Made by a program: the position numbers and the translations under genes. Under the pieces are notes generated by a model. The model ran no database searches. It had not been told where the DNA came from and saw only the letters and a program-made list of their open reading frames with translations. A stretch of DNA of 59,731 nucleotides from Acidimicrobiia bacterium (GTDB lineage Bacteria; Actinomycetota; Acidimicrobiia; IMCC26256; PALSA-610): positions 1 to 59,731 of the forward strand of contig DATBAK010000051.1 of assembly GCA_036271555.1 (NCBI GenBank), in the 5' to 3' direction. Position 1 is the stretch's first letter; each line of letters begins with the position of its first letter. Of this stretch, positions 2,097-12,570 are shown piece by piece.

Positions 2097-2606
2097 GTGC
2101 CGCCGGAATCGCCACTTGCCCTGACGGTCAACGGTGCGCGCGTCGATGTGGATGTCGATGCGCGCGTGACGCTCCTCGATCTTCTGCGCGAGCTGCTCGG
2201 GCTGACGGGCACGAAGAAGGGTTGCGACCGCGGGCAGTGCGGTGCGTGCACGGTGCTCGTCGAGGGGCGCAGGGTGAACAGCTGCCTCGTGCTCGCGTTG
2301 ACGGTCGCCGGCTGCGAGGTGACGACCGTCGAGGGTCTGGCGAGCGCCGGCGCCCTGTCGCCGTTGCAACGGGCGTTCCTCGAGCACGACGCGTACCAGT
2401 GCGGGTATTGCACGCCCGGTCAACTGTGCTCGGCGACCGCGGCGCTGGCGGAGCTCGGAGCGGGCGCGCCGAGCGCGGTCACCCCCGATGGCACCGGCGC
2501 GCCGATCCTCTCGGCGGAGGAGATCCGGGAGCGCATGAGCGGCAACCTCTGCCGCTGCGCGGCGTATCCGAACATCGTCGATGCCATCCTCGAGGTCGGC
2601 GCGTGA
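2097..2606 (+). CDS. Mo-hydroxylase 2Fe-2S subunit (PaoA/CoxS-like)
   Basis: Iron-sulfur subunit of a heterotrimeric xanthine oxidase-family molybdenum hydroxylase, 169 residues, the usual family length. The plant-type 2Fe-2S ligands are C43, C48, C51 and C63; the second 2Fe-2S cluster is made by the CGYC pair (C102, C105) and the CRC pair (C152, C154). These clusters carry electrons from the molybdenum site to the FAD subunit encoded next. The start is GTG. Unlike E. coli PaoA there is no Tat signal ahead of the ferredoxin domain, so the enzyme is probably cytoplasmic. The stop overlaps the GTG of the FAD subunit by 3 nt, indicating tight translational coupling. The substrate cannot be read from this subunit. 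Confidence 0.95.
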   Translation: MPPESPLALTVNGARVDVDVDARVTLLDLLRELLGLTGTKKGCDRGQCGACTVLVEGRRVNSCLVLALTVAGCEVTTVEGLASAGALSPLQRAFLEHDAYQCGYCTPGQLCSATAALAELGAGAPSAVTPDGTGAPILSAEEIRERMSGNLCRCAAYPNIVDAILEVGA

Positions 2607-3604
2607 GGGAGTTCCGCTACGAGCGCGCGCCCGACCGGGCGACGGCCGTCGCGCTCGCCGGTCAGTCGGCCGCCAAGCTGCTCGGCGGCGGGACGAACCT
2701 CGTCGACCTGATGAAGATCGGTGTCGAGCGTCCCGAGCTCCTGGTCGACACGACCGCGCTCGGGCTCGGAGCCATGGAGACCCTCGCCGACGGCACGCTC
2801 CGCGTCGGTGCGTCGGTGCGCAACGCCGACCTCGCGCAGGACCAGCGGGTTCGCGACGCCGCGCCGGTGCTGTCGCAGGCACTGCTCTCGGGAGCGTCCG
2901 GTCAGCTGCGCAACATGGCGACGGTCGGCGGCAACCTGCTCCAGCGCACGCGGTGTCCCTTCTTCCAGGACGTCACCAAGCCGTGCAACAAACGCAGCCC
3001 CGGGTCGGGATGTCCGGCGCGCGCGTCGGCAGTCCGCGACCTCGCGATTCTCGGTGCGTCCGAACAGTGCGTCGCGACCCATCCGTCCGACATGGCGGTT
3101 GCATTGGCGGCGCTCGACGCGTCGGTCACCATCGACGACTCGACGGGCACGCGATCGCTCCCGCTCGCGGCGTTGTACCGGCTGCCCGGCGACCGGCCGG
3201 AGCTCGACACGAACCTGCCGCACGGCGCACTCGTCGTGGGTGTCGACGTGCCGGCACTCCCGGCCGGAGCTCGAAGCGGCTATCGCAAGGTTCGCGACCG
3301 CGCGTCGTTCGGCTTCGCGCTCGCGTCGGTCGCCGTTGTGCTGCTGCTCGACGGCCGCGACGTCGCCGACGTTCGCATCGCGCTCGGCGGCGTCGCCCAC
3401 ATGCCGTGGCGCGCGCGCAAAGCGGAGGCGCTGCTCGTCGGCCATACCGTGACGCCGGCGCGCGTCGCGGGCGCGATTGCCGTCGAGCTCGACGGCGCGC
3501 AGCCTCTGCGTGGCAATGCGTTCAAGGTCGCGCTCGTCGAGCGGCTCGTCACCAGCACCGTCTGCGCGCTTGCCGACGTCGACCCCGACGGAGGGTCGGC
3601 GTGA
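2603..3604 (+). CDS. Mo-hydroxylase FAD subunit with PaoB-type [4Fe-4S] insert
   Basis: FAD-binding subunit of the same enzyme, 333 residues. FAD-contact motifs are visible near the N-terminus (KLLGGGTNLVDLMK) and at about residues 108-115 (ATVGGNLLQ). Directly after the second motif comes a cysteine-rich stretch with CPFF, PCNKR and PGSGC. This is the signature that carries an extra [4Fe-4S] cluster in E. coli PaoB (YagS) and is absent from CoxM-type subunits. The complex is therefore closer to PaoABC aldehyde oxidoreductase than to CO dehydrogenase. The GTG start at 2603 overlaps the previous stop, and the stop overlaps the GTG of the Mo subunit. The final acceptor (oxygen, quinone or a ferredoxin) cannot be decided from the sequence. 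Confidence 0.92.
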   Translation: MREFRYERAPDRATAVALAGQSAAKLLGGGTNLVDLMKIGVERPELLVDTTALGLGAMETLADGTLRVGASVRNADLAQDQRVRDAAPVLSQALLSGASGQLRNMATVGGNLLQRTRCPFFQDVTKPCNKRSPGSGCPARASAVRDLAILGASEQCVATHPSDMAVALAALDASVTIDDSTGTRSLPLAALYRLPGDRPELDTNLPHGALVVGVDVPALPAGARSGYRKVRDRASFGFALASVAVVLLLDGRDVADVRIALGGVAHMPWRARKAEALLVGHTVTPARVAGAIAVELDGAQPLRGNAFKVALVERLVTSTVCALADVDPDGGSA

Positions 3605-5706
3605 CGTTGACGAGGGCGACCGGCGACCGCAGGGTGCGCGTCGAAGGGCCCGACAAGGTCAGCGGCCGCGCGGTCTACGCATACGAGCACCGCATCGACC
3701 GCGTCGCGTACGGCCGCGCGGTGGGCGCAACGGTCGCGCGCGGCAGGGTGATCGACGTCGACGTCGAATCCGCGCTCGCCGACCCCGCAGTGCTCGCCGT
3801 CCTCTGGTTCGGCAACGCGCCGCGACTCGCGACGGACGAACCGTCGGAGCTCTCGATCCTGCAAACGGACCGCGTGGCGTACCGCGGGCAGATCGTCGCG
3901 CTCGTCGTCGCGGAATCGCTCGAGACCGCGACGGAAGCGGCTGAACGGCTCGACATCCGGTACGCGGAGGAGCCGTTCGCAGTCGAGCTGCGCGTCGACG
4001 ATCCCGAGCTGTACGCGCCGGAGAAGGTCAATCCCGGCTTCCCGACCGACACGAACGAGGGCGACGTCGAGGCCGCGCTCGCGCGCGCCGCCTGCTCCGT
4101 CGACGCGGTGTACCGAACGCCGGCGTACCACAACAATCCGATGGAGCCGCACGCCGCGATCGCCGTGTGGAACCGTGACGCGCTCACCGTCTACGACTCG
4201 AACCAGGGTGTGTTCCCGGTGCGCGACAAGCTCGCCGAGATCTTCGGTATCCCGCCGGGAGACGTGCATGTGATCAGCGAGCATGTCGGCGGTGCGTTCG
4301 GTTCGAAGGGCACGCCCCGCCCGATCGTCGTCGGTGCGGCGATGGCGGCGCGGGCCGTCGGCCGACCCGTGAAGCTCGCCGCGACACGCGCGCAGATGTT
4401 CGTGTTCGTCGGCTACCGGACGCCGACGATCCAACGGGTCCGCCTGGGCACCGATGACGACGCGCAGCTGGTCGCGCTCGCGCACGACGTCGTCGAACAG
4501 ACCTCGACGCTCCAGGAGTTCGCGGAGCAGACCGCGGTGCCGTCGCGCATGATGTATGCGTCGCCTCACCGGCGGACGACACACCGGCTCCGCCGGCTCG
4601 ACGTACCGACACCGTCGTGGATGCGCGCGCCCGGTGAATGCCCGGGGATGTACGCGCTCGAATCCGCGATGGACGAGCTCGCGGTCGCGTGCGCGATCGA
4701 TCCGATCGAGCTTCGTGTCCGGAACGAGCCTCGGGTCGACCCCGAGACGGGCAAGCCGTTCCCGAGCCGCCACCTCGTCGAGTGCCTGCGCGAGGGTGCG
4801 CAGCGCATCGGATGGTCGGCGCGCGCGGAGCCAGGCGCGCGTCGCGTCGGACGCGGGCTCGTCGGTCTCGGAGTCGCCGCGTCGACGTATCCGGCGCGCA
4901 CGCGGCCCTCCTCGGCGCGCGCCCGCGCGCTGCCCGACGGCGGCTTCGAGATCGAGATCGCGGCGGCCGACATCGGAACCGGCGCGCGCACGGTGCTCGG
5001 GCAGATCGCGGCCGACGCGCTCGGCGTCGACGCGGCGCGCGTCCGCGTCCGTCTCGGCGACAGCGCCCTTCCGCAGGCGCCGCTCGCAGGCGGATCGATG
5101 GGAACGTCGTCGTGGGGCTTCGCCGTCACGCGTGCGTGCGAACGGCTGCTCGAGTCGATGCACGGTCCCGGGGAGCCGGCCGAGGTGAGCGTGGACACGA
5201 CGGCCGAGCTCGACGCGCGGGAGGAGCGGCCGAGCCATGCATTCGGCGCGCAGTTCGCCGAGGTGCGCGTCGACGTCGACACGGGTGAAGTCCGCGTCTC
5301 TCGTCTCGTCGGTGTGTTCGCGGTGGGTCGCGTGATGAACGCACTCACCGCGCGATCACAGCTGATCGGTGGCATGACCATGGGCCTGTCGATGGCCCTC
5401 CTCGAGGAGAGCGTGCTCGATGCGCAGTTCGGCGACTACCTGAACCACGATCTCGCGCAGTACGAGATCGCGTCGTGCGCCGACGTCGAATCCGTCGACG
5501 TCTCGTGGATCGACGAAGAGGACGACTACGTGAATCCGATGGGCGCCAAGGGCATCGGTGAGATCGGCATCGTCGGTACCGCAGCGGCGATCGCCAACGC
5601 GACCTTCAATGCTACGGGGGTGCGGGTCCGCGATCTGCCGATTCGCCTCGACGCGATGGTCGGATCGGTCGCGCCGTCGGCACCGGAACGGGAGGATGGA
5701 CGATGA
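3601..5706 (+). CDS. Mo-hydroxylase molybdopterin-cytosine-dinucleotide subunit
   Basis: Catalytic subunit, 701 residues. The N-terminal hammerhead domain begins with RVRVEGPDKVSGRAVYAYE, and the Mo-cofactor domains follow. HVGGAFGSKG (about residues 226-236) is the conserved molybdenum-pocket glycine motif, and GAKGIGEIG (about 647-655) supplies the catalytic base glutamate. The active-site loop is not the cysteine-containing VAYRCSFR of CO dehydrogenase, so aldehyde, purine or another N-heterocycle is more likely. At 701 residues it is slightly short of the usual 730-780. GTG start overlapping the FAD subunit stop; the stop TGA overlaps the ATG of the nitroreductase gene. No maturation genes (xdhC, mobA-like) are in the window. 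Confidence 0.93.
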   Translation: MTLTRATGDRRVRVEGPDKVSGRAVYAYEHRIDRVAYGRAVGATVARGRVIDVDVESALADPAVLAVLWFGNAPRLATDEPSELSILQTDRVAYRGQIVALVVAESLETATEAAERLDIRYAEEPFAVELRVDDPELYAPEKVNPGFPTDTNEGDVEAALARAACSVDAVYRTPAYHNNPMEPHAAIAVWNRDALTVYDSNQGVFPVRDKLAEIFGIPPGDVHVISEHVGGAFGSKGTPRPIVVGAAMAARAVGRPVKLAATRAQMFVFVGYRTPTIQRVRLGTDDDAQLVALAHDVVEQTSTLQEFAEQTAVPSRMMYASPHRRTTHRLRRLDVPTPSWMRAPGECPGMYALESAMDELAVACAIDPIELRVRNEPRVDPETGKPFPSRHLVECLREGAQRIGWSARAEPGARRVGRGLVGLGVAASTYPARTRPSSARARALPDGGFEIEIAAADIGTGARTVLGQIAADALGVDAARVRVRLGDSALPQAPLAGGSMGTSSWGFAVTRACERLLESMHGPGEPAEVSVDTTAELDAREERPSHAFGAQFAEVRVDVDTGEVRVSRLVGVFAVGRVMNALTARSQLIGGMTMGLSMALLEESVLDAQFGDYLNHDLAQYEIASCADVESVDVSWIDEEDDYVNPMGAKGIGEIGIVGTAAAIANATFNATGVRVRDLPIRLDAMVGSVAPSAPEREDGR

Positions 5707-6218
5707 ACGTGACGGACGCGATCGCGACCCGCCGCAACGTGCGCGAGTACGCCGACGACCCGATCCCTGCCGACGATCTCGATCGGGTGCTCGAGGCCGG
5801 CCGGCGGTCGCCGTCGTCGTCGAACAAGCAACGCTGGGACTACGTCGTCGTCACCGACCGCGATCAGCTCGCCGAGCTCTCGACGGTGTGGCAGGGAGCG
5901 AAGCACATCGCGTCGTCGGCCGCGACGATCGCGCTCGTCGCGCCGGTTGCCGACGACGAATACGCACGTGACTCGACGCACTACGACCTCGGTCAGACGA
6001 CGATCTGCCTCATGCTCGCGGCCGTCGAGCTGGGCATCGGCAGCGCCCACGCCAAGGTCGAGGACCAGCGACGAGCGCAGGAGATCCTCGGCTTCCCCGA
6101 AGATCGGTTCTGTCCGTGGCTCGTCGCCCTCGGCTACCCGGCCGATCGCCCGCTACGGGTGATCGAGCATCCGAAGCGGCGACCGTTCGGCGACGTCGTC
6201 CATCGCGGCCGCTGGTGA
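5703..6218 (+). CDS. Nitroreductase-family FMN oxidoreductase
   Basis: A 171-residue nitroreductase-fold protein. The N-terminal FMN motif RRNVREYADDPIPADDL and the following EAGRRSPSSSNKQRW (residues about 30-45) are typical of the family, as is the C-terminal LGYPADRP. It starts with an ATGA overlap on the molybdenum subunit, so it is the fourth gene of the operon. It may reduce a quinone, a nitro compound or an enone related to the substrate of the hydroxylase; this is inferred from context only. It is shorter than classic homodimeric nitroreductases (about 200-220 residues), consistent with the small subfamily. Confidence 0.88.
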   Translation: MNVTDAIATRRNVREYADDPIPADDLDRVLEAGRRSPSSSNKQRWDYVVVTDRDQLAELSTVWQGAKHIASSAATIALVAPVADDEYARDSTHYDLGQTTICLMLAAVELGIGSAHAKVEDQRRAQEILGFPEDRFCPWLVALGYPADRPLRVIEHPKRRPFGDVVHRGRW

Positions 6219-6311
6219 CGTCGGAGCGCCGTCGCGATTCCTGGAGTGCCCCCGGCGTCGGTCGCATCGCCGGCGGCTACTCGCGACGAGCGACGGCAGA
6301 AGGAGTCGACG

Positions 6312-7016
6312 ATGAGCCTCACACTGGGACGAGGGCCACTCGGTCGGGAGCAAGCCGGTGAGTTGAACCTCACTCTCCCCGACAAGGTCGTGTACGTCGA
6401 GCCGCTCGGTCGACGCGTTCGCGGGGTGCGCGGCGGCGAGACCGTCGTCGACAGCGACGACGCCAAGCTCGTACACGTGTCGGGAGAACTGCCGCGGTAC
6501 GTGTTTCCCGAGAAGCATGTGCGCGTCGACGCGGAGCCGCATCCCGACGTCGACGGTCACGTCACGGTCGACTGGGCTGCGGTCGACGCATGGTACGAAG
6601 AGGATGAGCGCGTGTTCGTTCATCCGAGGGATCCGTACCACCGCATCGACACGTTCGCGACTTCGCGCCGCGTCGAGGTGCGCATCGACGGCGAGACCCT
6701 CGCATCGTCGACGCGTGCGCTCGCACTCTTCGAGACGGCACTGCCGGTCCGCTATTACCTCCCGCGAGCCGATGTGTGCATGGACGCGCTGCGTCCGAGC
6801 TCCACCGTGACCGAATGCGCGTACAAGGGCACCGCGCGGCACTGGTCCGCGGTGCTCGACAGCCGAGAAACGCGCGACGTCGCCTGGACCTACGAGCACG
6901 ACGTACGCCGCGAGGGCGAGCGCGTGCACGGTCTCATCGCTTTCTACAACGAGCGTGTCGACTTCGAGGTCGACGGCATCCGACTCGATCGTCCGCGCAC
7001 ACCATGGTCCACGTGA
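6312..7016 (+). CDS. DUF427 protein, two-domain
   Basis: A 234-residue DUF427 protein. The start at ATG 6312 is chosen because AGAAGGAG precedes it by about 8 nt; the frame is open further upstream. Two DUF427-like halves can be seen: residues 25-80 (KVVYVEPLGRRVRG ... VVDSDDAKLVHVSGELPRYVFP) and 125-225 (RVEVRIDGETLASSTRALAL ... ALPVRYYLPRADV ... CAYKGTARHWS ... AWTYEHDV). The biochemical role of DUF427 is not established. It follows the nitroreductase by 93 nt in the same direction and may be the last gene of the operon, or have its own promoter. Confidence 0.88.
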   Translation: MSLTLGRGPLGREQAGELNLTLPDKVVYVEPLGRRVRGVRGGETVVDSDDAKLVHVSGELPRYVFPEKHVRVDAEPHPDVDGHVTVDWAAVDAWYEEDERVFVHPRDPYHRIDTFATSRRVEVRIDGETLASSTRALALFETALPVRYYLPRADVCMDALRPSSTVTECAYKGTARHWSAVLDSRETRDVAWTYEHDVRREGERVHGLIAFYNERVDFEVDGIRLDRPRTPWST

Positions 7017-7140
7017 GCCGCGGGACGCGAGAGGGATGAGCGCGTAGAGCGGGCCCACCGCTGCGAACGGGGAAGCGCTCCGCCGTTGGGTGCGGCAGAC
7101 CACGCCGTGAACGCTCGTCATTGCGACTCGGCGCCGTTCT

Positions 7141-7166
7141 TTACATACGTACAGAGGTGTATGTAA
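7141..7166. promoter_or_regulatory. Palindromic operator candidate upstream of tetR
   Basis: A perfect 8-bp inverted repeat, TTACATAC (7141-7148) and GTATGTAA (7159-7166), with a 10-nt spacer. It lies immediately upstream of the TetR-type gene that starts at 7177. Its size and symmetry fit a TetR dimer site. The right arm also contains a -10-like TATGTA (7160-7165), so binding there would block the promoter. Autoregulation and control of the downstream DUF169/LDI-like genes is inferred. Confidence 0.65.
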
Positions 7167-7176
7167 CATCCCAACC

Positions 7177-7773
7177 GTGGCACCGGCGGGGGGAGTGGCA
7201 GCGCGGGAGCGGCGCACCCAGCGGGAACGCAGCGACTCGACCAAGACGCGGCTCGCCGACGCCGCGATCGAATCGTTGGTCGATCGCGGATGGGCCGCGA
7301 CGACGGTCGTCGAAGTGTGCGCGCGGGCAGGAGTGACCCGCGGCGCGTTCCATCACCACTACGACGGCCTCGCCGAGCTGCTCGCCGACGCGCTGCGCCG
7401 TCTCTACGACGAGCTCGTCGCTCGCAGCGGCGACTGGCGCGTCGACGTTGCGGGCCGACTCGACGCCGCATGGTCGGCGCTCGCGACGCCGAACTTCAAG
7501 GCGGTCATCGAGGTCTGGCTCGCGATGGCGAACGATCCCGAGCTCGCGGTCGAGATCGGACCGGTCGTCGCCGACTTCGCGTCGTTGATCGCGTTCGACG
7601 CGCGCGCGCTGCCGGTGAAGCAGCGGGCCGCGGCGCGTACGTTCTACGTGCTCGCGCGCGAAACGATGATCGGGCTCGCGCTCGGGCGCGCGACGAACGG
7701 CGGTAGGGCGCTGCCCCACGAGCGCGCCGTCCTCGCGGAGCTGAAGCGGCAGGCCCGCGCCGTCACGTCGTGA
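7177..7773 (+). CDS. TetR-family regulator
   Basis: A 198-residue TetR-type repressor. The N-terminal HTH covers about residues 20-65, with the typical ESLVDRGWAATTVVEVCARAG and GVTRGAFHHHYDGLAELL segments. The C-terminal ligand domain is unremarkable. The GTG start at 7177 lies only 10 nt after the palindrome, and no ribosome-binding site is visible, so the mRNA may be nearly leaderless. Its stop overlaps a GTG in the next frame and the DUF169 gene begins 15 nt later, so the regulator is the first gene of a three-gene cassette with a DUF169 protein and an LDI-like enzyme. The ligand is probably a substrate or product of that enzyme; this is inference. Confidence 0.92.
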   Translation: MAPAGGVAARERRTQRERSDSTKTRLADAAIESLVDRGWAATTVVEVCARAGVTRGAFHHHYDGLAELLADALRRLYDELVARSGDWRVDVAGRLDAAWSALATPNFKAVIEVWLAMANDPELAVEIGPVVADFASLIAFDARALPVKQRAAARTFYVLARETMIGLALGRATNGGRALPHERAVLAELKRQARAVTS

Positions 7774-7787
7774 ACAAGGAGCATCGG

Positions 7788-8501
7788 ATGGACGACAATC
7801 CTGCGCTCGCGGACCGGCTCGTCGCCGCACTCCGCCTGACTGCGGTGCCGGTCGCAGTCACATTCCACGGGACGGGCGCGCCGCCCTTCGACGGCACGTA
7901 CCCGGCGCCGGCCGACGACGGCCGAACCGGTGCCGTGCCCGCCGGCTGTGTGTTCTGGATGCACGCCGAGAACCGCACGTTCACGACGCGGGCGGACGAT
8001 CACGCGAACTGCAGCGTCGGCTCGCTCACGCACGGTTTCATCGACCTGGAGGCTGCCGCGACGCATCACGACGTGGCGTCGTTGGTCGAGGCGGGCTGGG
8101 TGTCGCCCGATGTCTTCCCCGACCTCCCCGTGGTCGTCGATGCACCCGAGGCCATCGCGTACGGGCCGTTGCGCGACGCACAAGACCAACCGGATGTCGT
8201 GCTCGTGCGCATGGACGCGGCAGGCGTGATGACACTGCTCGCCGCGGTGCCCGACGCGCGCGTCGAGGGCAAGCCGCAGTGCCGGATCGTGGTGCTCGCC
8301 AAAGACCATGACGCGGTCGCAGTGAGCGCGGGCTGCGCGCTCAGCCGTGCGCGAACGGGTATGGCGGCGTCGGACCTGACGTGCGCGATCCCGGGCCGTC
8401 GTCTCGGAGAGGTCGTCGCCGCGATCGAAGCCGCGGGGGCCGCCGACGCGATCGTCGCCGACTACGCGCACGCCGACGCGGCGCGGTTCGTCGCGTCATG
8501 A
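7788..8501 (+). CDS. DUF169-family protein
   Basis: A 237-residue protein of the DUF169 type, a family of unknown biochemical role that contains conserved cysteines. Cysteines sit in AGCVFWMHAE (about residue 47), HANCSVGS (about 72), and the pair CRIVVLAK and GCALSRA/LTCAIPG in the C-terminal half. The ATG at 7788 is preferred over the GTG at 7770 because AAGGAG sits 6 nt upstream of it. The stop overlaps the ATG of the LDI-like gene (ATGA), so the two are translated together. The cysteine pattern suggests metal or cofactor binding, but this has not been shown for the family as far as I can state. Confidence 0.82.
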   Translation: MDDNPALADRLVAALRLTAVPVAVTFHGTGAPPFDGTYPAPADDGRTGAVPAGCVFWMHAENRTFTTRADDHANCSVGSLTHGFIDLEAAATHHDVASLVEAGWVSPDVFPDLPVVVDAPEAIAYGPLRDAQDQPDVVLVRMDAAGVMTLLAAVPDARVEGKPQCRIVVLAKDHDAVAVSAGCALSRARTGMAASDLTCAIPGRRLGEVVAAIEAAGAADAIVADYAHADAARFVAS

Positions 8502-9991
8502 CCGTTCCTGCGCTGGACGAGCGCGCGCAGGGTTGGCTGCGCTACCTGTACCGCAAGGCGACGACGCCCGACAGCTGGGATCGCGAGGATCATCCGCACG
8601 AGCACTGGGACGGCGTGAGCGACGCGCCGATGTGCTCGTGGCATCGCTTCGACCTCATCGACTCCACGTACGCGATCGCGATGATGGCCGACCTCACGCC
8701 CGCGTGGCGTGAGATGTACGGCCGCATCCTCGACGAGCTCGTCTTCCGGCACACGGGCTGGTGGGCGGCGCGCGACTGGCTCACGCAGATCGGGCACGAT
8801 CCCGATCGCGCGCAGTATCCCGACCTCTACCGGCTGCTCATCCCCGAGCATCTGTGGGGCAACTACGACGCGCCGGGATGGACCGCGAACGGCATCGAGC
8901 CGTGGGGTCTGCAGATGGACCCGATCGGCGCGACGGGGAACCTCTTCTTCAAAGGGTTCTTCCTCGTGATGCTCGGGCTACACCTGCGCACGACCGGCGA
9001 CGACCGCTGGGACCAGCCGTTCGACATCGTGCGCGACGGCGAGAACACGTTCACGTGGTTCCACACCGCGATCGCGGAGCACCTGCACGCCCAGTGGCGC
9101 GCCGCGCCGCACGGATGTCACTGCGAGAACACGAAGGTGTGGCCGTACTGTCTCGCGGGCGCGGGACTCGGGTTGCAGCTGCACGACCTGCTGCGCGGCA
9201 CCGACCACCACGGGGTGTTCCACGAGTGGTTCGCGGATGTGTGTCGCGCGCGCTACCTGCACCTCGACGCGGACGAGCTTCCGCAGATGGTGACGCTCTA
9301 CTACGACCCGATCCTCGACGTGCACCACGAGGTGCCGACGATGTTCGGCATGGTTCCCGCGCAGTACCTCGCGCCGCAGGTCGTCCCCGACGCGCAGCGG
9401 TTGTTCGAGGCCGGCGTCACGCAGATGGGCATCTGGGAACCGACCGCGCCGATCCTGCCGACCGGTCCGCGCAGCTCCGCCGCGATCATGTGGCTCGCGC
9501 GCGAGTGGGGATTGCAGTCGCTTGCGTCGGCGATGAGCGACGCGATCGACACCGCGTACGAGCCGACGTGGGACGCGAGTCGCGGCGAGTTCACGTGGGG
9601 TTTCGGGCTAAGAGAGTCGCACCCGCGCGGTCAGTACAACGGAACGATGGCCGCGGCGCAGATCGCGCGCGAAGGGTCGTGGTGGCACGTCGCGAACGTG
9701 GGGCCCGGCGCGCGCTTCGACGAGCCGACGGTGTGCGATGTCGACGTGCCGTCCGTCGTGCTGAGTCAGGCGTGGTGGGACGGCGGGCGCGAGGAGCTGA
9801 CCATCGGCGTCGAGCCGCGGCCGTCGATGCGCGGCACGACGACGTTCACGGTCACGCAGCTGCCTGACCCGCGACGCTTCCACGCGACGACCGATGGCCC
9901 GCACATCGCGGCGCGGGTCGACGGTGATGCGCTCCGCGTCGAGGTCGACGCGGTGCCGCAGCGGGTCGTGATCAGAGCCGGCGAATCGTGA
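8498..9991 (+). CDS. Linalool dehydratase/isomerase-like enzyme
   Basis: A 497-residue (alpha/alpha)6-barrel type protein resembling linalool dehydratase/isomerase (LDI) of Castellaniella. In LDI the acting residues are a Cys pair nine residues apart (C171, C180) and D39/Y45 six apart. Here C209 and C218 (HCENTKVWPYC) and D52 and Y58 (FDLIDSTY) have the same spacings and surroundings. I could not place an equivalent of LDI H129; the matching helix may be NLFFKGFF. The protein is about 100 residues longer than LDI, with a C-terminal beta-rich extension (about residues 400-497). No signal peptide is seen, whereas LDI is periplasmic. ATGA overlap with the DUF169 gene. The last 20 nt overlap the converging GHMP kinase gene. 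The reaction is likely hydration, dehydration or isomerisation of an alcohol or alkene, but the substrate is unknown. Confidence 0.72.
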   Translation: MTVPALDERAQGWLRYLYRKATTPDSWDREDHPHEHWDGVSDAPMCSWHRFDLIDSTYAIAMMADLTPAWREMYGRILDELVFRHTGWWAARDWLTQIGHDPDRAQYPDLYRLLIPEHLWGNYDAPGWTANGIEPWGLQMDPIGATGNLFFKGFFLVMLGLHLRTTGDDRWDQPFDIVRDGENTFTWFHTAIAEHLHAQWRAAPHGCHCENTKVWPYCLAGAGLGLQLHDLLRGTDHHGVFHEWFADVCRARYLHLDADELPQMVTLYYDPILDVHHEVPTMFGMVPAQYLAPQVVPDAQRLFEAGVTQMGIWEPTAPILPTGPRSSAAIMWLAREWGLQSLASAMSDAIDTAYEPTWDASRGEFTWGFGLRESHPRGQYNGTMAAAQIAREGSWWHVANVGPGARFDEPTVCDVDVPSVVLSQAWWDGGREELTIGVEPRPSMRGTTTFTVTQLPDPRRFHATTDGPHIAARVDGDALRVEVDAVPQRVVIRAGES

Positions 9992-10943
9992 GGCCGGTGG
10001 GGCTGATCGCGATCGGGAACACGCGGTAGCGCGCGTCCAACCGCGCAACAGCGGCGTCGAGCGTGCGCTTCGCGTCGGCGTTCGCGCTGAGCAGTGTGAG
10101 CGACCCGCCGTCACCGCCCGCGCCGTTCACCTTCCAGCCGAGCGCGCCGCAATCGGCGGCGAGGTCGACGACGCGCTGCGCGTCGACTCCAACGAGGTCG
10201 GCGTGCAGCGCTCGCTGGGCCTCGGTGTTGTCGATCATCGCGGCTCCGAACGCGCGCAGGTCGCGCGCGAGCACTGCGTCGCGCGCCGCCATCGCGGCGG
10301 CGCGGAGCCGATCGAACGCGGTCGACGGCTGCGCAGCGACCCGACCGATCACGTCGCGGTGCACGCTCGACGAGTCGTGCGCGCGCCCGACGGAGACGAG
10401 CGACAGCCGGGCACCGAGGTCGTCCCAGTCCGGCAGACGGTGCACCACGCCGGCGGGATACGCGTCGATCTCGATGAAGTTGACCCCGCCGAGCGCCGCA
10501 CTCAGCTGATCCTGCACCCCGCTCTCGAGCCCGAGGTGCTCGACCTCGAGCCGGTGCGCGTCGCGCGCGATCGAACGCGCCGACCACGGTTCACCGCGCG
10601 ACTCGGCGAGCGCGGTGAGGAGCGCGACCGCGACCGCGGCCGACGTGCCCGCGCCGCATCCGGGCGGCACCGCCGCGCGCACGCGGATCTCGAGGCCGCG
10701 GTCCGATGGTGGCGGCGAGACCTCGACGGCGGCGTGCACGAGCGGCGACGGCGACTCGACGTCGATCACGAGCCGCGGCGGGCCCGCGAGCTCGCGGACC
10801 GACACGGTGACGCCCGGCGTCACGGCCACGTTCAGCACCCGCCCCGGCCCGCCGAACCAGGTGTCGGTCCAGCCGCCGAGGTCACAGATGCGTACGGGCG
10901 CCGACACCTCGAGCTCCACGGCACCCGTCGTATCACCGGACAT
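9972..10943 (-). CDS. GHMP-family small-molecule kinase
   Basis: A 323-residue GHMP kinase. The N-terminal SAPVRICDLGGWTDTW corresponds to the sugar-kinase motif 1, PPGCGAGTSAAVAVALL (about residues 90-106) is the ATP-binding motif 2, and KVNGAGGDGGSLTLL near the C-terminus is motif 3. The arrangement resembles heptose-7-phosphate/fucose kinases (HddA/FKP-like) more than mevalonate kinases, because of the GGWTD segment. The start is the ATG at 10943, directly before the first conserved segment; the open frame upstream looks non-coding. The gene converges on the LDI-like gene with a 20-nt overlap. The phosphorylated substrate is probably a sugar; not provable here. Confidence 0.85.
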   Translation of the reverse strand: MSGDTTGAVELEVSAPVRICDLGGWTDTWFGGPGRVLNVAVTPGVTVSVRELAGPPRLVIDVESPSPLVHAAVEVSPPPSDRGLEIRVRAAVPPGCGAGTSAAVAVALLTALAESRGEPWSARSIARDAHRLEVEHLGLESGVQDQLSAALGGVNFIEIDAYPAGVVHRLPDWDDLGARLSLVSVGRAHDSSSVHRDVIGRVAAQPSTAFDRLRAAAMAARDAVLARDLRAFGAAMIDNTEAQRALHADLVGVDAQRVVDLAADCGALGWKVNGAGGDGGSLTLLSANADAKRTLDAAVARLDARYRVFPIAISPTGLTIRRL

Positions 10944-11239
10944 CCGACGCCGGACGCGGCCGGAGTCCGGCGTCGCGTGATCTCGTCCGTCGGCGCGCAG
11001 ACGCCGATTTCGGCGTTCGGGATCGAGCCCGAGGCTCGCGTCGAGCACGGGAGAGCAACCCGGGAGGAGCGCGGCATGGCTTCCCGCACCCAGGCCGACC
11101 TGCCGACTCGCGTCGCCTCCGTCGCGGCGACCTTCGGGCGACGATGGCTCGACCCGGATCACGAAGGCGCGACGATTCACGACGTAGGGTCACGCGTGTA
11201 CTGATGAGATCCACAGCCATGGATCGGGGGGCCAGCAAA
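10944..11239. other. Divergent intergenic region, GHMP kinase / CAP-like gene
   Basis: About 296 nt without a convincing gene. It must hold the promoters of the leftward kinase and the rightward CAP-like gene. The last 60 nt resemble the region before the second CAP-like gene (the pattern CGA-C-TA-GGT followed by a run GGGGG-CCAGC just before the start), showing that the promoter region was duplicated with the gene. A TAGGGT -10-like hexamer is at 11185-11190. Confidence 0.5.
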
Positions 11240-11836
11240 ATGCGTCGTCTGCTCACGTTCGTCGCGGTCACGTGCGTCTCGCTCGGGTTTCTCGGCGCCG
11301 GCGGCGCGACCGCCGCCAGCCCGCCGAACATCCCGCCGACGGCGGCATTCGGGAACGCCTGCTACGGCCAGCGGGCGACGCACGCCTGCGACAAGCAGGC
11401 CATTCTCAACATCAACAGCGCGCGCGCGACCGAGGGCCTCGGCCCGATCGCGCTGCCCGCCAACTACAAGAGCCTCACGCTCATCCAGAAGGAGGTCGCG
11501 GTCTCGAACGCGGAGCGGACGGCGCGCGGCCTGTCGAAGCTGCCCGCGAAGCTCGCGTGGGCCAAGCTCGCAAAGACCGGCGCCGTGAACAACACCGACC
11601 CGATCGGTCCGAGCGGCCGCGGCTGGGGATCGATCTGGGCGGGCGGTCTCGGTGATCCGCTCGCGGCCGACTACCTCTGGGTGTACTGGGACGGGCCCGG
11701 CAGCCCGAACGGCGACTGCGTGAACCCCGGCGACTCCGGCTGTTTCGGGCATCGCAACAACATCCTCGGCCCGTTCTGGACGGCGATGGGTGCGGGCAAG
11801 GCGCCCGGATCCCTGGCCCAACTCTTCGTCCAGTAG
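11240..11836 (+). CDS. Secreted CAP/SCP-like protein, copy 1
   Basis: A secreted protein of 198 residues. The start at ATG 11240 is chosen by comparison with the paralogue that follows; both genes begin MRRL directly after a GGGGG-CCAGC sequence. Signal peptide: residues 1-28, ending in GGATAASPP. The mature part has NINSARATEGLGPIALP and the C-terminal FGHRNNILGPF, which match the N-x-x-R-x-x-x-G-L and H-R-x-N-I-L motifs of the CAP (SCP/PR-1) fold. The usual first active-site histidine is not obvious, so it may be non-catalytic. Four cysteines (ACYG, HACD, GDCV, GCFG) could form two disulfides. The function of bacterial CAP proteins is mostly unknown. Confidence 0.82.
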   Translation: MRRLLTFVAVTCVSLGFLGAGGATAASPPNIPPTAAFGNACYGQRATHACDKQAILNINSARATEGLGPIALPANYKSLTLIQKEVAVSNAERTARGLSKLPAKLAWAKLAKTGAVNNTDPIGPSGRGWGSIWAGGLGDPLAADYLWVYWDGPGSPNGDCVNPGDSGCFGHRNNILGPFWTAMGAGKAPGSLAQLFVQ

Positions 11837-11973
11837 CGATCGCGGCCTCGGCCTCGGCGTCGTCGCCGGCTCGGTCGCGCGCGACGTGCCCGTGAATTGA
11901 TCGTGCGACGGTTCGCGACCTACGGTCCCGCGCGCTGCGAATGAAACGCCAGCCACGGACTCGGGGGCCCAGC

Positions 11974-12570
11974 ATGCGCCGTCTCGCCACCATCGTCACC
12001 GTCGCCTGCCTCGCGGTCGGACTCTTCGGTACCGGTGCCGCCCGAGCCGACGGGCCGGTGAACACACCGCCGACCGGCCGGTTCGCGTTTGCGTGCTACG
12101 GCAAGTCGCACCCGAATTTGCGCTGCGACAAGGCTGCACTGGCGAACATCAACCGCGCGCACAAGGCGGAAGGTCTCGGCAAGATGGTGTTGCCGGAGAA
12201 CTACGCGAGCCTCACGGTCACGCAGCAGGGGATCGTGGTCTCCAACCTGGAGCGCACGATTCGCGGCCTGCCCGCGCTGCCCGGGAAGCACGCGTACACC
12301 CAGCTGGCGAAGGCCGGTGCGGTCGCCGGCCACGACCCGAGCGGTCCCGAGGGCCACGCCTGGGGTTCGGTCTACATCGCGCTCGCCGATCCGCTCGCGT
12401 CCGACTACTTCTGGATGTACTGGGACGGTCCGGGCAGCCTGAACCCCGACTGCACGCAGCCGAGCGACCCGGCGTGCTTCGGTCACCGCAACATCATCCT
12501 CGGCGACATCTGGACGGGGATGGGCGTGGGGAATCAACACGCGTCGATGGCGCAGCTCTTCGTCCAGTAG
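11974..12570 (+). CDS. Secreted CAP/SCP-like protein, copy 2
   Basis: Tandem paralogue of the previous gene, also 198 residues. The signal peptide (MRRLATIVTVACLAVGLFGTGAARA), the four cysteines, the central NINRAHKAEGLGKMVLPENY and the terminal FGHRNIILGDIW line up position by position with copy 1, and both end in AQLFVQ. The two genes are 137 nt apart and share the sequence pattern just before the start codon, so this is a whole-gene duplication including the promoter. Divergence is considerable (roughly half of the residues differ by eye), so it is not recent. The stop lies 8 nt from the end of the converging esterase gene. Confidence 0.82.
   Translation: MRRLATIVTVACLAVGLFGTGAARADGPVNTPPTGRFAFACYGKSHPNLRCDKAALANINRAHKAEGLGKMVLPENYASLTVTQQGIVVSNLERTIRGLPALPGKHAYTQLAKAGAVAGHDPSGPEGHAWGSVYIALADPLASDYFWMYWDGPGSLNPDCTQPSDPACFGHRNIILGDIWTGMGVGNQHASMAQLFVQ

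Follow-up and report, generated by a model that had tools for sequence, protein, structure and literature searches.

The locus studied here raises the question of what a TetR-family regulator, a DUF169 protein and a protein similar to linalool dehydratase/isomerase (LDI) do side by side in a member of the Acidimicrobiia. Within the window (i.e., the whole stretch of 59,731 bp that was analysed), the three genes form one operon behind a palindrome (Table 1). An earlier note on this DNA had named the three families and placed the genes and the palindrome correctly, and profile searches bear the families out: TetR_N (PF00440) reaches 40.5 bits (cut-off 24), PF02596 63.3 bits (cut-off 27), and Ldi (PF18566) 50.4 bits (Pfam gathering cut-off 26.1). 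The translational linkage claimed there for all three genes holds for DUF169 and LDI, where the stop codon and the ATG at 8498 overlap as ATGA, but probably not for TetR and DUF169. The TetR stop codon is overlapped by a GTG at 7770; the ATG at 7788 is, however, the likelier start of the DUF169 gene, because it is preceded by AGGAG (7778–7782) and because the DUF169 relative of genome G100 (in L006) starts at the corresponding position, and therefore the DUF169/LDI junction is the sole true overlap.

Table 1. Features of the cassette and sites discussed in the text (positions in the window)
Feature	Position	Strand	Basis or remark
Perfect inverted repeat TTACATAC-N10-GTATGTAA, 8+8 bp, candidate TetR operator	7141..7166	.	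Direct reading; statistics; genome uniqueness
Promoter-like site TTTACA-18-TAACAT	7140..7169	+	No second one in 6900-10400; mean of shuffles 0.2
TetR-family regulator, 198 aa	7177..7773	+	TetR_N PF00440, E 2.3e-10
DUF169 (COG2043) protein, 237 aa	7788..8501	+	PF02596, E 3.7e-17; alternative start GTG 7770
LDI-like enzyme, 497 aa	8498..9991	+	Ldi PF18566, E 3.1e-13; AlphaFold model; orthologues
Codon TGC, Cys209 (= LDI Cys171)	9122..9124	+	TGA in 12/29 UGA-containing orthologues
Codon TGT, Cys218 (= LDI Cys180)	9149..9151	+	TGA in 29 orthologues
Place of the SECIS hairpin in UGA orthologues (their loop GGUCU = 9170-9174)	9164..9180	+	Absent in window (CTCGGGTTGCAG)

Upstream of the cassette, a three-gene molybdenum hydroxylase (2097–5706; PaoABC-like by NCBIfam scores) is overlapped by a nitroreductase-family gene, which is followed by a DUF427 gene (5703–7016, on the strand of the cassette). 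Subunits related to this molybdenum hydroxylase are also found near LDI genes with selenocysteine codons (see below) in L022 and L094. Further downstream, a tandem pair of similar, probably secreted proteins (11144–11836 and 11941–12570), likely a local duplication, has the motifs INxAR/INRAH, EGLG and GHRN-ILG in common.

Concerning the palindrome, the inverted repeat of 8+8 bp reported in the earlier note is exact. It is unremarkable by length alone and is set apart by its A/T-rich arms: perfect 8+8 repeats are common (134 in the window, about 97 per shuffle), and those with at least five A/T in the arms are rare (two in the window, none in ten shuffles). The chance of an 8+8 repeat in the 160-bp gap is about 0.005 for a spacer of 10 bp and about 0.08 for any spacer of 3–20 bp. 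With up to two mismatches allowed, the palindrome occurs once in the 4.68-Mb genome (control: 0). The promoter-like site sits on it, and the predicted +1, close to GTG 7177, would make the tetR message leaderless. Because of the A/T-rich arms, the uniqueness in the genome and the position on the only promoter-like site of this region, self-repression by the TetR protein is likely, as far as can be judged from the operator; the regulator would probably repress its own promoter here and control both the DUF169 protein and the LDI-fold enzyme. TetR repressors with operators of their own are known from the AcrR type, with which the protein shares the TetR_N domain and an A/T-rich palindrome that covers the promoter in front of its own gene, whereas it matches no NCBIfam regulator family above that family's cut-off.

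The DUF169 protein shares with other DUF169/COG2043 proteins its match to PF02596 above the cut-off, and differs from them in that its gene lies in an operon with an LDI-like gene. Four cysteines (Cys54, 75, 165 and 183) are common to it and its relative in G100. A search of its sequence against the PDB gave no match, its structure model was built from two sequences and has a pLDDT of 48.7, and in the literature DUF169 was found mentioned in gene lists only, with no tested function.

The search for LDI orthologues covered the order (58 genomes), the class (395), the phylum (396) and the order of G343 (397), sets which overlap and together comprise about 1,000 genomes, as well as the GTDB contig collection. 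The gene-order search proposed in the earlier note turned out largely against a conserved cassette: no second intact TetR-DUF169-LDI order occurs in the about 1,000 genomes searched, no intact DUF169 or TetR gene adjoins LDI at the orthologue loci of other genomes, and no neighbour is common to more than six of 35 loci. Remnants exist in Candidatus Microthrix (L004), where an intact LDI gene (60% identical to that of the window) is preceded by two DUF169 fragments in collinear order (E 6.5e-6 and 4e-4, against 3e-3 for the best reversed control), the junction again being a stop/start overlap (GTGA) of the same kind, and is followed by two TetR fragments (decayed TetR relative at 2389–2948 of L004). 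In G100 (LDI in L003, 68% identical), the DUF169 relative (48%) is situated on a different contig from LDI. To judge from these comparisons, TetR and DUF169 are associated with LDI in two lineages, both belonging to one branch, and in one of the two the association has decayed. It is known only from that branch, whose members possess cysteine at both active-site positions (Cys/Cys, see below); the three-gene cassette exists, though it is rare. On its contig in G100, the DUF169 gene adjoins YjbQ-family- and glutathione-peroxidase-like genes (L006, 1504–2995; by eye). The TetR gene adjoining LDI in G1015 (L082) was rejected as a different regulator, which overlaps an epimerase-like gene.

The LDI-like enzyme consists of a barrel domain (residues about 1–408) and a C-terminal beta domain (about 411–494). 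Its AlphaFold model (pLDDT 87.9, pTM 0.91) matches LDI with a Z-score of 34.4 over 326 residues at 2.5 Å, the next fold scoring 20.5. The correspondence of both active-site cysteines (Table 1) comes from a profile alignment, and the residue numbering is consistent with the structure entries M125A, C171A and C180A; mutant structures of LDI exist for C171A, C171S and C180A. LDI-likeness thus stands for the fold and both cysteines, but not for LDI His129, which is replaced by Phe154, nearly invariant in 33 aligned proteins. Compared with the LDI of Castellaniella defragrans (PF18566; PDB 5g1u, 5hlr, 7ad2), barrel fold and cysteines are kept, whereas sequence identity is 19%, the C-terminal beta domain is added, an obvious signal peptide is lacking (by eye), and orthologues would use selenocysteine (Sec). 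A hydratase review (PMC6013536) gives Cys171 and Cys180 of LDI a part in acid/base or covalent catalysis on the substrate; since one proposal for LDI is acid/base catalysis with no covalent intermediate (PMC6013536), Sec at these positions need not act as a nucleophile.

It is at these cysteines that the most unusual feature of the family lies, which was invisible from the window and so escaped the earlier note: orthologues carry UGA there. An in-frame TGA was first seen in six of the initial orthologues; altogether, 29 genes in 28 genomes (Acidimicrobiia and phylum) have one (UGA2) exactly at the position of Cys218, 12 of them also one (UGA1) at that of Cys209. The window gene represents the Cys/Cys form (TGC, TGT), without in-frame UGA, and all four Cys/Cys proteins group in a single clade (support 100/99); the family tree is midpoint-rooted and does not decide between Cys and Sec as the ancestral state. 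Two orthologues possess Ser/His at the two sites (L027, 8421–9875; L105, 5978–7432; dN/dS about 0.17); because they form a long branch in the tree and are yet still under selection, they may have another activity. In G979, a single-UGA copy (L083, 6396–7850) and a double-UGA copy (L107, 2601–3755) are found on different contigs, being either paralogues or mixed bins.

Following UGA2, the codons CTC-GGT-CTG-AGR are found in all 29 genes (expected from their own codon use: 0.0014 per gene). They belong to a hairpin whose loop GGUCU begins at +19 throughout and whose stem of 6–7 bp is paired in every gene, one pair being changed from C-G to U-A in seven; in E. coli fdhF, too, this pentamer begins at +19. 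The hairpin is absent in the window, L004, L081 and L082 (all Cys/Cys) and in the Ser/His genes. In the orthologues it agrees with the SECIS model of PMC13188914 (loop of 3–9 nt with G among the first two, stem of 4–16 bp, a distance of 16–37 nt from UGA and an energy of -7.5 kcal/mol or lower), with energies of -6.7 to -11.4 for the 20-nt core and -8.5 to -18.4 for a 42-nt stretch, the minimum-energy fold of which differs from the SECIS hairpin in some genes. Compared with synonymous shuffles, the hairpin energy lies below the mean in all 29 genes; because 0.01–0.31 of the shuffles per gene reach it, it is the invariant sequence and the pairing, not the energy, that make the case for a SECIS.

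The hosts possess the corresponding machinery. Of the 28 UGA genomes, 27 have a tRNA-Sec above the Rfam cut-off; the exception, G626 (84% complete), has none above the cut-off and is among the six UGA genomes tested for SelB, all positive. The genome of the window itself contains SelB and tRNA-Sec (contig C19), though its LDI-like gene uses Cys; the other three genomes with a Cys/Cys gene (completeness 58–89%) lack tRNA-Sec. By their UGA, the GGUCU loop at +19 and SelB/tRNA-Sec of their hosts, the orthologues, not the window gene, resemble selenoproteins of the fdhF type (E. coli formate dehydrogenase H), from which they differ as an alpha/alpha barrel of another family with up to two Sec, nine codons apart.

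In the double-UGA genes, a separate UGA1 hairpin fully fitting the SECIS model is not present in every case. UGA2 is, however, enclosed by a 7-bp hairpin (UCUGGCC/GGCCGGA), complete in 12 of 12 double-UGA and 2 of 17 single-UGA genes, which RNAalifold found unprompted alongside the SECIS hairpin. No pair of it is changed on both sides, and the difference between double- and single-UGA genes may partly be due to descent; in the tree the double-UGA genes do not group in a single clade, though most inner branches there are weak. We hypothesize that this hairpin acts as a spacer or as a second SECIS. With UGA2 in its loop, it would shorten the distance between UGA1 and the GGUCU hairpin and melt as the ribosome advances; a tentative proposal is that one GGUCU loop could in this way serve two UGAs 27 nt apart and yield a lyase/isomerase with two selenium atoms, not a redox protein.

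Could the UGA codons be something other than Sec codons? Many of the source genomes look like drafts or metagenome assemblies of many contigs, and pseudogenes or sequencing errors might be suspected. In 28 genomes, however, single-contig G184 among them, the UGA affects the same one or two codons, the matches of the 29 genes contain no other in-frame stop, and dN/dS downstream of UGA is 0.07–0.31, i.e., selection is purifying; these observations contradict an origin by decay or error, which is hardly conceivable. Reassignment of UGA to another amino acid, or read-through by a near-cognate tRNA without selenium, would equally explain a UGA inside an open frame and is very improbable: the genes end at ordinary stops, and because most of them still end in TGA, UGA is not reassigned; moreover, UGA is confined to two Cys positions and co-occurs with tRNA-Sec and the SECIS-like hairpin. 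The comparison of sequences thus establishes the two-site exchange of UGA and Cys, a bacterial SECIS after UGA2, the selenocysteine machinery of the hosts and selection downstream of UGA.

Concerning function, the earlier note had proposed an inducible pathway for terpenoids or tertiary alcohols, in which DUF169 and an LDI-like dehydratase/isomerase cooperate under a substrate-sensing TetR. There is good support for a compact operon that is probably self-repressed, and operator, LDI fold, both catalytic cysteines and the remnants of all three genes in Microthrix fit the proposal; but nothing tested points to a terpenoid, no terpenoid gene is recognised around the locus, LDI His129 is lost, the gene order is not kept in orthologues and DUF169 is unlinked in G100, and such a pathway appears unlikely. 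Somewhat better placed, if still doubtful, is the reading as a redox protein with thiol/selenol chemistry on an LDI scaffold, with a disulfide, selenenyl-sulfide or diselenide pair instead of lyase/isomerase activity: a redox role is assumed for most selenoproteins (PMC13188914) and Sec is possible at both sites together, whereas redox motifs do not usually take the form of C-x8-C in an alpha/alpha barrel and the LDI cysteines are assigned to catalysis on the substrate (PMC6013536). The reading we prefer, with a probability of roughly three quarters, is that of a TetR-controlled operon encoding an LDI-fold enzyme together with a DUF169 protein, the enzyme being the Cys form of an Acidimicrobiia-centred family, most members of which would carry Sec at one or both of the equivalents of Cys180 and Cys171. 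The two side chains would form a reactive centre acting through thiolate or selenolate, by acid/base or covalent catalysis. The reaction would most likely be of the lyase/isomerase type, with a small hydrophobic compound as substrate, and the effect of selenium would be a higher reactivity and a lower pKa.

We found no description of an LDI-related family with putative Sec for one or both active-site cysteines. Neither LDI nor a PF18566 protein is among the 119 prokaryotic selenoprotein families and subfamilies catalogued in 2026 (PMC13188914), the LDI-like enzyme has no match in NCBIfam, and no literature joining a selenoprotein with linalool dehydratase or with Ilumatobacter was found, unpublished or subscription-only reports being possible. 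UGA-containing LDI-like genes are probably split in two by automatic annotation. The family would add selenoproteins on an alpha/alpha-barrel scaffold and offer a natural two-UGA case for the study of SECIS use. The two positions that selenium would occupy are precisely those in dispute in the mechanism of LDI, and the natural Cys/Cys, Cys/Sec, Sec/Sec and Ser/His versions would let the role of each residue be tested directly.
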